Below are positions 7,626-10,814 of a stretch of 10,814 nucleotides of DNA, one piece after another. A program made the translations under genes and the position numbers. Below the pieces are notes generated by a model. That model saw only the letters and a program-made list of their open reading frames with translations. It did not search any database and was not told the DNA's origin. Positions within the stretch are counted from its first letter, which is position 1; the number at the start of each line of letters is the position of its first letter. Location of the stretch: the NCBI GenBank assembly GCA_944390995.1, contig CALXSA010000043.1, forward strand, positions 1-10,814. Direction: 5' to 3'. This stretch comes from an uncultured Clostridia bacterium (GTDB lineage: Bacteria > Bacillota_A > Clostridia > TANB77 > CAG-508).

Positions 7626-7647
7626 TTATTCCTTTGCCATACTAGCT

Positions 7648-7769
7648 GTTGGGAAAAGAATTGTCTTTTGGCTAGGCACACGAGTTAGAAATGTACGAGG
7701 CGTACTCAGTGTACGTTGAGTACATTTCTAATGAAGTGTAACAACGCCAAAAGCAATTATCTTCCCAAC
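7648..7769. repeat. Structured intergenic element, copy 2 (mutL-membrane protein gap)
   Basis: This is a 122-base long hairpin. The outer stem GTTGGGAA (7648-7655) pairs with TTCCCAAC (7762-7769); inward are AATTG/CAATT next to a G-A mismatch, TTTTGGC (7666-7672)/GCCAAAA (7746-7752), ACAC/GTGT, a perfect 12-base stem TTAGAAATGTAC (7685-7696)/GTACATTTCTAA (7720-7731), and a terminal hairpin GCGTAC (7700-7705)/GTACGT (7711-7716). It abuts the mutL stop codon (7770-7772) exactly. Compared with copy 1, the outer stem, the ACAC/GTGT stem and the long middle stem differ, while connecting motifs GGCTAGGC, GAGGCGT, ACGTTGAG and AACAACGCC are kept. Confidence 0.82.
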
Positions 7770-10256
7770 TCATCTTCTAGAAAACTTTCTTTCTATGTCC
7801 TCTCTCGTCATTCTAATCGCAGTTGGCCTGCCGTGTGGACATGTGAATGGGTTTGGAAGTACCAACAATTGCCTCATTAAATTGTCGACTTCTTCCCTTG
7901 AAAGCGCCATATTAGCCTTAACAGCTGCCTTGCATGCTACTGTAGCAATAAACTTGTCCTCAATTTCCTGCTTTGCAGTTCTTGCAACTGTGTTTATTTC
8001 GTCCAATGTCTCTAGAAACAACTCTTTTGTATCTAGGTCTAGGCATATTGTAGGAACTCCGCTTAGTTTAATTGTGTTTTCCCCAAACTCCTCTAAGTCA
8101 AAACCAGCTTTCTTGAAAATATCCATATTGTCTTTCGCAATTTGCATATCTTTGTGGCTTAGGTTAATTATATCTGGAAGTAGCATAAGCTGCGAATCTT
8201 TGCTTCCATTGTCACTGTAGTAATTCGCCTTTATTTTCTCGTACATTATTCTTTCGTGTGCTGCGTGTTGGTCAATAATATATAGCTCTTTATTCATTTC
8301 TATTATTATATATGTAGAAAATGCAATTCCAATATATTTGTATTCTGGTGTTTTGCCCTCTGGTAGCTTCTCGAAAATAGAAACATTCTCAGCAGTTTTT
8401 AGGTCTTGGGTGTCTATTTTGTATTCGTCCTTTTCTTCTTCCACTTTTTCTTCGTCTTTTATAACCTTGCCGAAAGTCTTCGCATACATCTCATTGAAAT
8501 CGCCATAGTCCGGTTCCATTTTTAAGTTGTCCATTTCGTGCATTTTCTCGTTAATCTCAGATAAATCTACAACCTTTGTTTCGCTGTTGTCATCGGTATT
8601 TTCAGTAATTCCATTTTTATTGTTGTATATCTGTGCAATAAAGTTTTGTGTGTCATCTGGCTTTACTTCTTCCTCGGTCTCTTGCTTTTTGTTACCAAAC
8701 CTGCTAAGCAAACCACTAAACTTACTTGATAAGCTTTCTTCTTTTGGTTCATTTGTTGCATCTAAGCTCTCATCTTCTCCACCAAATAAGTCGTCTAGCC
8801 TGTCGCTTTTATTCTCTGCACTATTTTCTGTTCCATCCAAAATTGACAAATCTTGAAGTGGTGCATTTTTTAATTTGTTTATTTCCTCTAAAATATCTAT
8901 TTTAGGCTCGGTGCTCTCTGCTGCATTGTTTTCTCCTGCTACCACGTTTTCTGGTTTACTCTCTCCAGACGCCACGTTTTCAGTCTTATTTGTTCCTGCA
9001 AGAGATGCATTTATACCTTTTAATGTATTTTGCATTGCCTCCAACTTCTGAGCAGCTGTCAACTCCTCGCCCGGCGCTTGTACGGTTGATGTAAGCGCAT
9101 CGCCAGCTGACACTTGTGTTTTCATTGTCTCTGGCGTATTGCCAACCTGCGAAATTCCATTTGAGGCTTGCGTTTGCATTGTCGCTGCCCCAAACTGTGT
9201 TGGCGAAATTTTCCACGAACTATTTAGCTGCTTATCTAGCTCAATCTTAGTCTTGTCTGGCACCAAATCTTCTTTAAGCAAGCTGTCTTTTATAGCGTGA
9301 TATATAGCCTTGAACACCTTGTTTTCTTCTTCAAACCTAACCTCTAATTTAGCAGGATGAACATTTACATCCACCTTTTGAGGGTTCATTTCTAGATTTA
9401 AAACCAAGAAACCATATTTTCCAATTGTCAAAAGGCCCTTGTAGCCCTGCTCTGCTGCACTTGTTAAGGTCTTGTCCTTTATGTATCTTTTATTTACGAA
9501 AAACAATTGATTAGACCTGTTAGAACGCGCAACAACCGGCTTTCCAATTACTCCCTTAACTTTTATATCTTCATATTCATAATCAACATCAATAATATTT
9601 TCCGCAACATCCTTTCCATAAATACTGTATATAACTGACTTCATATCGCCATTTCCTGAAGTTTGAATAATAGTCTTGCCCGAATTCACAAGTTTTATAG
9701 AAATCTCTGGATGAACAAGCGCAATTCTCGTTACTGCATCCTCAATATATCCAGCCTCTGTGAAATCTTTCTTCAAAAACTTGTACCTAACCGGCGTATT
9801 GAAAAATAGGTCTGTAACAGTAATTGTACTGCCCTTTGGACAACCAGCATCCTCGAAATTAAGAATTTGTCCGCCCTTCACCTCTATTTTCTTTCCAATC
9901 TCGTTATCCTCAGTCCTTGAAACAAGCTCCACATTACTAATAGCCGCAATACTCGCCAAAGCCTCGCCTCTAAAACCCATTGAAGTAACCGTCTCCAAAT
10001 CTTGAGCTTGCCTTATTTTACTTGTCGCATGCCTCTCAAACGCAATCTCCATATCGTCCGGCATAAAACCCTTGCCATTATCCGTAATTCTAATATAAGA
10101 AATACCACCATTTTTTATATCTATTGTTATTTTATTAGCCCCAGCATCTATAGAATTCTCCACAAGCTCCTTTACTACAGACGCAGGCCTTTCAATAACT
10201 TCTCCCGCCGCTATTTTGTTTATTGTTAAATCATCTAATAAAACTATATTACCCAT
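7770..10256 (-). CDS. mutL: DNA mismatch repair protein MutL (long-linker form)
   Basis: MutL couples MutS mismatch recognition to strand incision. The 828-residue protein has the GHKL ATPase motifs VVKELVENSIDAGA (27-40), ITDNGKGF (57-64) and GFRGEALASI (94-103), a transducer domain to about 330, and a C-terminal endonuclease domain from about 638. The metal-binding motif DQHAAHE starts at D662, followed by ERIMYE; ACKAAVKA is around C775, and CPHGRP spans 806-811. These mark it as the nicking type found in bacteria without MutH. The linker (about 330-635) is near 300 residues, low in complexity and rich in Ala, Thr, Glu and Asn, making the protein roughly 200 residues longer than usual. The ATG has AAGGA five to six bases upstream. 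The extended -10 promoter lies at 10324-10332. Confidence 0.98.
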   Translation of the reverse strand: MGNIVLLDDLTINKIAAGEVIERPASVVKELVENSIDAGANKITIDIKNGGISYIRITDNGKGFMPDDMEIAFERHATSKIRQAQDLETVTSMGFRGEALASIAAISNVELVSRTEDNEIGKKIEVKGGQILNFEDAGCPKGSTITVTDLFFNTPVRYKFLKKDFTEAGYIEDAVTRIALVHPEISIKLVNSGKTIIQTSGNGDMKSVIYSIYGKDVAENIIDVDYEYEDIKVKGVIGKPVVARSNRSNQLFFVNKRYIKDKTLTSAAEQGYKGLLTIGKYGFLVLNLEMNPQKVDVNVHPAKLEVRFEEENKVFKAIYHAIKDSLLKEDLVPDKTKIELDKQLNSSWKISPTQFGAATMQTQASNGISQVGNTPETMKTQVSAGDALTSTVQAPGEELTAAQKLEAMQNTLKGINASLAGTNKTENVASGESKPENVVAGENNAAESTEPKIDILEEINKLKNAPLQDLSILDGTENSAENKSDRLDDLFGGEDESLDATNEPKEESLSSKFSGLLSRFGNKKQETEEEVKPDDTQNFIAQIYNNKNGITENTDDNSETKVVDLSEINEKMHEMDNLKMEPDYGDFNEMYAKTFGKVIKDEEKVEEEKDEYKIDTQDLKTAENVSIFEKLPEGKTPEYKYIGIAFSTYIIIEMNKELYIIDQHAAHERIMYEKIKANYYSDNGSKDSQLMLLPDIINLSHKDMQIAKDNMDIFKKAGFDLEEFGENTIKLSGVPTICLDLDTKELFLETLDEINTVARTAKQEIEDKFIATVACKAAVKANMALSREEVDNLMRQLLVLPNPFTCPHGRPTAIRMTREDIERKFSRR

Positions 10257-10403: not shown

Positions 10404-10479
10404 GAGCAAAAAACAGCAACGCTGGAGAATAACGGCTATTGTACTTCTAACCATTATCTCCAGCGCTGCTGTTTTGCTC
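10404..10479 (-). terminator. Very long intrinsic terminator-like hairpin
   Basis: The arms 10404-10438 and 10448-10479 form a stem of more than 30 base pairs around a nine-base loop (10439-10447), with only small bulges. In the minus-strand RNA the inner stem CAGCAGCGCTGG.../...CCAGCGTTGCTG is followed directly by TTTTTT. The three non-Watson-Crick positions are G-U pairs in the minus-strand RNA but A-C mismatches on the plus strand, which suggests that the minus-strand RNA is the functional form. It is GC-richer than its surroundings. Confidence 0.7.
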
Positions 10480-10741: not shown

Positions 10742-10814
10742 GTCGAGTAGAAATAGACATTACTGTCTAAAACCCTCACAGAACCGTACTTGCGCTACTA
10801 ACGCATACGGCTCT
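10742..10814 (-). mobile_element. 3' end of a group II intron (domains 5 and 6)
   Basis: On the minus strand, 10813-10781 is a clear domain 5: GAGCCGTA pairs with TACGGTTC, the AGC catalytic triad is at 10812-10810, a two-base AG bulge lies at 10790-10789, and the upper stem TGCGT/GCGCA closes a five-base loop where a GNRA tetraloop is usual. Domain 6 follows: TAGACA/TGTCTA hairpin and a bulged A (10748) seven bases from a 3' end CGAC at 10742. The ribozyme body and any reverse transcriptase gene would lie to the right of the window, in the same orientation as mutL. Whether the intron is full length cannot be told. Confidence 0.88.

Follow-up and report, generated by a model that had tools for sequence, protein, structure and literature searches.

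An intergenic hairpin repeat of uncultured Clostridia is probably a phylum-crossing relative of the enterobacterial ERIC element

The window analysed here, a stretch of 10,814 nucleotides, carries three copies of an intergenic hairpin that is probably a new, phylum-crossing branch of the ERIC type, that is, a non-autonomous, high-copy hairpin. Kinship to ERIC is what a covariance model built free of ERIC predicts, and the 'enterobacterial' ERIC repeat type may thereby be spread across bacterial phyla. By gene content the window is a Clostridia-like contig, with NCBIfam matches to ffh, ylxM, L28, a DivIVA-domain protein, miaA and mutL, and Pfam matches to S16, SepF and HlyD. Copies, host genes and probable remnants lie as follows, where R1 is a covariance model of Clostridia copies only.

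189 to 236 (approximate), + strand: probably what a deletion left of another copy, with GAATTAAATTTTGGC fused to a 3' arm (by eye, direct repeat)
251 to 375, + strand: copy 1, TA at 251-252 and 374-375; R1 143.8 bits at 246-380
278 to 282, + strand: loop motif 1 of copy 1, TAGGC, partner AACAAC at 344-349; conserved in alignment A2
302 to 324, + strand: loop motif 2 and terminal hairpin of copy 1, AGGCGT..ACGTTGAG
373 to 1725, - strand: ffh (signal recognition particle protein), host gene of copy 1; TIGR00959, 614.8 bits
1768 to 1896, + strand: copy 2, TA at 1768-1769 and 1895-1896; R1 89.2 bits at 1764-1900
1887 to 2249, - strand: ylxM, host gene of copy 2; NF045758, 88.9 bits
7598 to 7622 (approximate), + strand: probable 5'-arm remnant of a further copy (by eye, direct repeats)
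7648 to 7769, + strand: copy 3, ends without TA; R1 117.2 bits at 7642-7775
7698 to 7720, + strand: loop motif 2 and terminal hairpin of copy 3
7770 to 10256, - strand: mutL, host gene of copy 3; TIGR00585, 572.1 bits

The first-pass annotation had placed copies at 251-375, 1775-1889 and 7648-7769. All three are present and fold far beyond shuffled sequence, with the motifs named for them in place; for copy 2 the location held and the borders were too short, since pairing reaches about 1768-1896. Lengths are 125, about 129 and 122 nt. As RNA, the + strands fold at -54.8, -44.7 and -61.2 kcal/mol (copies 1 to 3), which 0 of 200 dinucleotide shuffles equal (z -7.6, -8.3 and -9.5), and the - strands fold more weakly in all three cases (-44.4, -37.7 and -55.6). 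The pattern AGGCGT..ACGTTGAG occurs twice in the window against a mean of 0.00 in 200 shuffles. Copy 2 is divergent, with loop AAGGC/AACGCC, and the remnant at 189-236 is similar to full copies starting AAGAATTAAATTTTG. Flanked by ffh and rpsP, copy 1 follows the TAG stop codon of ffh (373-375, - strand). Copy 2 lies between ylxM and ffh, with the ylxM stop codon (1887-1889) inside its outer arm, and copy 3 sits between mutL and a protein without family match, directly behind the mutL TGA (7770-7772). The genes around each copy are co-directional, as had been described: the neighbours of all three are on the - strand, and the elements are antisense to them. Compared with Rfam 15, a step proposed in the first pass, the window copies gave no match even at E<=10. 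When the copy-3 region was searched by BLAST, plasmids gave no match and phages only two of 21 nt, which are taken as chance, and an exact pattern found no element copy in viral_contigs. Elsewhere in the window, 10742-10814 on the - strand, at the contig end, holds the 3' domain of a group II intron (RF00029, 42.6 bits). A 19-bp inverted repeat at 10410-10475, 95% complementary (AAAACAGCAACGCTGGAGA), lies upstream of mutL and is unlike the element.

The family extends well beyond this contig. An exact-pattern scan of genome_contigs returned 40 stretches, 38 from uncultured Clostridia MAGs and two from Syntrophaceae MAGs. The covariance-model search that had been advised found many copies in other genomes: R1 detects 5-74 copies per genome in 22 of 22 genomes, all chosen because they had matches. 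Copies occur in 37 of the 56 genomes of the set around G006 (G006 included), and there are matches in 12 of 245 genomes in the class sample of G006 and in 75 of 149 in that of G022 (Syntrophaceae). R1 scores are about 40-150 bits on the modelled strand and about 17-46 bits on the opposite one. G010, of which the C1-C5 pieces are without match, may be a mixed bin. Three copies (L013:1372-1700, L019:3344-3669 and L037:4259-4500, approximate) carry an extra structured domain of about 160 nt in the 5' arm, between helix 3 and helix 4, with GCCGATTTGAGTTTCC..GGAAATCTCAAAGGC and a near-perfect hairpin, and this domain has no Rfam match at E 0.5. A half-motif scan of 367 kb of G006 yielded no long form with a gene between the element halves; lone half motifs are present in the scanned DNA, for example in L062 (3191, - strand). 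A second Syntrophaceae sub-family (L183, L191, L192, L197-L200, L202, L205) shares loop 2 and has ends of the type GGGGCTGTTCAAAAA../..TTTTTCAACAGCCCC.

Covariation was measured on alignment A2, which comprises 34 Clostridia copies, namely the three of the window and one each from 31 loci, and leaves out L004, L007, L013, L016, L017, L019, L031, L037 and L039 (cut, chimeric, Syntrophaceae or near-duplicate). On its structure both partners change in 24 of 40 pairs (148 cells versus 34 in shuffles). The covariation test suggested in the first pass gave a score of 0.347 against 0.113 in shuffled alignments, a value that 0 of 500 shuffles reach. The stem exchanges described among the window copies are real, in the outer arms, in GAAC/GTTC versus ACAC/GTGT and in the terminal hairpin, and arms change together rather than independently.

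Read from the outside inwards on the + strand, the element begins with TA (in part of the copies) and a site-specific outer arm of about 10 bp, followed by helices of AATTG/CAATT type and then of TTTTGGC/GCCAAAA type. Loop 1 sets TAGGC or AAGGC against AACAAC, AACGCA or AACGCC, and inward of it come a 4-bp helix, an internal loop, a helix, loop 2 and the terminal hairpin. Loop 2 has GA against GA with G.T pairs adjoining, and these two G.T pairs are mostly kept or turned into G-C through a change on the 3' side, less often into A-U. The helices are variable and the loops vary little. The element is thus an imperfect palindrome of about 125 nt in which two conserved non-helical motifs, loop 1 as WAGGC/AACRMM and loop 2 as GAG../..TGA (tandem G.A next to G.T), sit within freely changing helices.

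Outermost TA dinucleotides are found at both ends of two of the three window copies, and many family copies lack them. Boundaries set by the longest pairing are noisy, and by this measure 21 of 117 copies have TA at the right boundary as detected and 21 more have it within the last pair. Because of that noise a loop-anchored count was used, in which TA peaks 27 nt left of loop 1 (31 of 111 copies). RUP is reported in parts of PMC2229807 as a MITE of a TA-targeting transposase of IS630/Tc1-mariner type, and a similar origin from such a DDE transposase would agree with the TA at the ends of part of the copies and with empty-site pairs, such as L081 versus L085, that by eye fit a TA duplication. 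The low share of copies with TA at or next to the right boundary argues against it, as do the outer arms, where a transposase would bind, which are among the least conserved parts. We consider this origin unlikely.

The helices also indicate which strand folds. Isolated in-helix positions on the + strand of 103 distinct copies (two from Syntrophaceae) show 101 G.T and 37 A.C, or 72 versus 12 in the outer arms, 12 versus 8 in the middle and 17 versus 17 in the core, so that the excess is clear in the outer arms only, among copies found with a + strand model and with mutation bias left in. Cut, chimeric, same-site duplicate and weak matches are excluded here and from the boundary, loop-anchored and stop-codon counts, as are 13 further weaker or duplicate rows of one search, which was excluded entirely for G.T and A.C. 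The outer-arm excess of G.T over A.C argues for a fold of the antisense (+) strand, and G.T on that strand fits poorly with a role resting on the mRNA fold alone. Judging by this tolerance, recognition is probably of the + strand in a folded, single-stranded state, and we infer folding as ssDNA or antisense RNA.

Copies are strongly oriented relative to genes, here taken as ORFs called by a simple script. Among 121 entries (116 distinct), 119 have a gene behind the 3' end, which is antisense in 110. An antisense stop codon lies within -16..+12 nt of the match end in 66 of the 116 distinct copies. Antisense ORFs stop 20-27 nt behind loop 1 in 67 of 102 copies, 12 more being without such an ORF within 300 nt, and the + strand 3' end is mostly within about 10 nt of the stop codon of the antisense ORF. 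The element would seem to settle mostly right behind stop codons, its + strand antisense to the gene. Exceptions seen by eye (L029, L069:5470, L020:1913 and L020:6151) are in sense orientation, with a ribosome-binding site immediately downstream. Two matches, L069:11462-11596 and L068:8636-8769, are directly behind T-box-like terminators (GGTGGTACCNCGG) and upstream of the next gene (by eye). Two explanations of the position were rejected. TGA stops are not significantly avoided (8/66 at the element versus 101/560, p 0.30), so the TA of the stop codon as a target does not explain where the element sits. Insertion into terminators was dismissed, as copies inspected by eye show no T-tract following the outer arm. 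Integron-like attC recombination sites agree with the element in two respects, a place after stop codons and folding of the antisense strand. Yet the RYYYAAC/GTTRRRY core is not kept, helix 3 varies freely, and the element's hosts, in the window as in the ffh operon, are core genes rather than cassettes, which makes an attC identity extremely improbable.

Occupancy differs even within one operon. Of the ylxM-ffh-rpsP loci of 30 genomes, 17 are matched at sites following ylxM, ffh, rpsP or genes further along, in differing sets, and 13 have no match, including all seven whose ffh is at most 92% identical to that of the window. A terminating ribosome ends about 10 nt behind the stop codon, and the constant part of the element begins about 10 nt behind it. 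In a 3'-UTR hairpin the terminating ribosome would cover the outer arm, and such a hairpin in operon mRNAs would change the stability of the upstream message. ERIC in Yersinia is reported to alter mRNA stability in an orientation-dependent manner through an RNase E site (parts of PMC2229807 and PMC10969869). By analogy, an mRNA-processing role is the leading guess, and an mRNA effect is likely, though secondary to how the element persists. The reverse could hold if the element were a cis-acting 3'-UTR RNA under mRNA selection, its sense hairpin setting processing or decay of operon segments with mobility secondary. The antisense stop codons, the operon-internal sites, the coevolution of outer arms at the same site and the Yersinia reports agree with such an element. 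The outer-arm mismatches do not, as the mRNA strand would bear A.C where the antisense strand has G.T, and neither does the differing occupancy of the same operon among relatives. A primary role in mRNA appears possible, though rather doubtful.

Interiors and arms appear to evolve separately. Same-genome pairs with interiors at least 90% alike number 44 and involve 68 copies. The two closest pairs (0.979 and 0.978) have outer arms in common, whereas the third closest (0.978) and many of the best 40 of the 44 have different, self-complementary outer arms. L086:515 and L081:508 are 0.92 alike in the arms and 0.84 in the interior, and the interior of L086:515 is 0.98 alike to that of L086:911, about 400 bp apart. 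Paralogue interiors are closer than those of the supposed orthologue in 60 of 79 pairs, among which copies recur and some may be separate insertions. At the ffh site G.T intermediates connect the differing arms of the window, L084 and L100, and L094 and L095 show a double G-C to T-A change at an interior identity of 1.00. We infer interior gene conversion and coupled arm evolution, through selection or hairpin-templated correction. Resident copies would have their interiors homogenised within a genome, and their outer arms would stay site-specific with pairing kept. The first-pass annotation had argued for a selected fold rather than a simple dispersed repeat. A structured family is supported by the 24 of 40 pairs that change on both sides. 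Selection on the fold is not the sole reading, because outer-arm change is site-specific and interiors are often common to sites of one genome; correction of arms on a hairpin template and gene conversion between interiors probably play a part beside it.

The element appears to be mobile. No enzyme for it was found in this analysis, and we know of no mover of ERIC. A REP-like element mobilised by a long Y1 (RAYT-like) transposase of the host genomes was tried and rejected. There is a phyletic association, as long Y1 genes, of 240 aa upwards, occur in 23 of the 27 genomes that have five copies or more versus 10 of 29 others (p 1.4e-4, kinship ignored), and one gene matches NCBIfam REP_Tyr_transpos below cut-off (58.3 vs 80). 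Hardly any linkage accompanies it, however. An R1 copy is present in only one of 25 Y1 loci, six of seven genes inspected by eye are flanked by their own GGGACAGG../..CCTGTCCC repeats, and G003 (30 copies) and G033 (34 copies) are without Y1 match. Mobilisation by Y1 is thus very unlikely. The RAYT-like Y1 genes themselves (about 265 aa; L106, L108, L109, L113, L115, L119) share a recurring gene neighbourhood and inverted flanks, and together with these repeats are probably a REP system of these Clostridia.

The Syntrophaceae copies pointed to ERIC, whose core is matched in 5375 of 5426 E. coli genomes. The name ERIC dates from 1991 (PMC2229807, in part), and a 2024 review describes the element, in the sections available, as a repeat of Enterobacteriaceae and Vibrionaceae (PMC10969869). 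Among the titles listed by a literature search covering few subscription journals there was no report of ERIC beyond gammaproteobacteria, nor did the accessible portion of PMC2267715 hold one. The consensus printed in PMC2759123 (seen as an excerpt) has loop 1 AAGGC/AACGCA, which is also found in L081. This loop starts 27 nt from TA, matching the TA peak of the family copies. The + strand of ERIC, the GTGAATCCCCAGG strand, folds better in five of five cases, as does the corresponding strand of the window copies in three of three. The first-pass statement that no named family is known with such a pattern is not supported in view of ERIC, which has near-equal length, the loop motifs and the same better-folding strand, and is found by an ERIC-free model.

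That model, R2, was built from 79 Clostridia and Syntrophaceae copies (alignment A4), and its pair counts lean toward the model because A4 was aligned to R1. R2 ranks ERIC first, on the + strand and at full length (positions 1-134). Among the first eight ERIC sources, of which three hold the ybhI site and two the same Pantoea site, it found L214 and L216 (that Pantoea site) at E=2.6e-5 and L213 at 0.011. It found L212 (1.6), L209 (1.8) and L217 (9.7) weakly, and L210 and L211 not at all. Eight of ten further ERIC loci scored at E 0.001-0.084 and L227 at 1.5, and the Serratia copy L219 was not found. Results on E. coli ERICs are uneven, L210 and L211 being missed, L209, L212, L217 and L227 at E 1-10 and others better (L226, 0.01; L228, 0.05). 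E-values are approximate, calibration having been short, and more weight falls on the strand control. At E<=10 R2 does not list the minus strand of these ERICs, although this is a hairpin of equal length, so being a hairpin does not suffice to explain the match. The two loop motifs were also cast, post hoc, as a positional descriptor, which is fitted by ERIC and by one of 20000 shuffles, and its stricter form fits 68 of 103 family copies.

An unrelated family might have converged on the ERIC architecture, the loop motifs being those favoured by any such long ssDNA or RNA hairpin. R1, built from Clostridia copies alone, finds nothing in ERIC at E<=10, R2 misses several E. coli ERICs, and the conserved ERIC ends are absent in Clostridia, all of which would suit convergence. 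Against it stand the recovery of ERIC in full register on one strand only and the fit to the two-motif descriptor, and convergence seems quite improbable compared with a new branch of the ERIC type. In a broader reading, hairpins marked by two internal-loop motifs and not by sequence, with a single-strand fold, gene-end entry and in-place rewriting, would form an ancient class that crosses phyla and has ERIC as its enterobacterial tip. Interiors would be copied between sites, and arms would be re-templated on each other. We put this forward tentatively, as a possibility short of an even chance. A structural signature that recovers ERIC from Clostridia and Desulfobacterota copies offers a route to relatives elsewhere. 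It makes testable which strand is recognised, which protein binds the two loops and why stop codons are favoured. With most of them in a single orientation behind stop codons, the Clostridia copies provide a cleaner system than E. coli.

Several known systems invite comparison. The Vibrio antisense RNA AS5 (Rfam RF02818, V_AS5) matches the ERIC + strand in six of six loci (L209, L211, L213, L214, L218, L228; E 1.2e-7 to 0.2, all below gathering score) and seems to be an ERIC-like sequence filed as antisense RNA, whereas it is absent from the window matches at E<=10. REP/BIME elements are often near stop codons and linked to a RAYT gene, and like the family they are high-copy extragenic hairpins. 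Their units, given as 20-40 bp in part of PMC3733652, are much shorter than about 125 nt, and the Y1 linkage of the family is the single locus in 25. RUP, Correia/NEMIS, BOX and other MITE-like elements, compared by description only, share lengths of about 100-200 bp, long stem-loop transcripts and, in several, TA termini, and differ by the terminal inverted repeats that the available part of PMC2229807 gives for several of them. ERIC differs in its conserved terminal TATACCC..GGGTATA, absent from Clostridia copies, where outer arms vary by site; many Syntrophaceae copies have ends ATACC..GGTAT. Its helices are of other sequence, and its hosts are Enterobacteriaceae and Vibrionaceae (PMC10969869, in part) rather than Clostridia and Syntrophaceae MAGs. 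Gene orientation is mixed in 15 distinct ERIC loci. Four of these are next to an antisense stop (ybhI, cusC, speB, narK; gaps of 1, 6, 3 and 3 nt, worked out by hand with incomplete plasmid gene tables), and the remaining loci are either 3-61 nt downstream of a sense stop or apart from genes, which makes the antisense-stop rule weaker in ERIC. ERIC, also called IRU or RU-1, is an imperfect palindrome of 127 nt against about 125, intergenic and in many copies, sometimes right behind a stop codon and with TA at its ends (as family copies are in part). It shares with the family the loop motifs AAGGC/AACGCA and GAG../..TGA, the 27 nt from TA to loop 1 and the strand that folds better.
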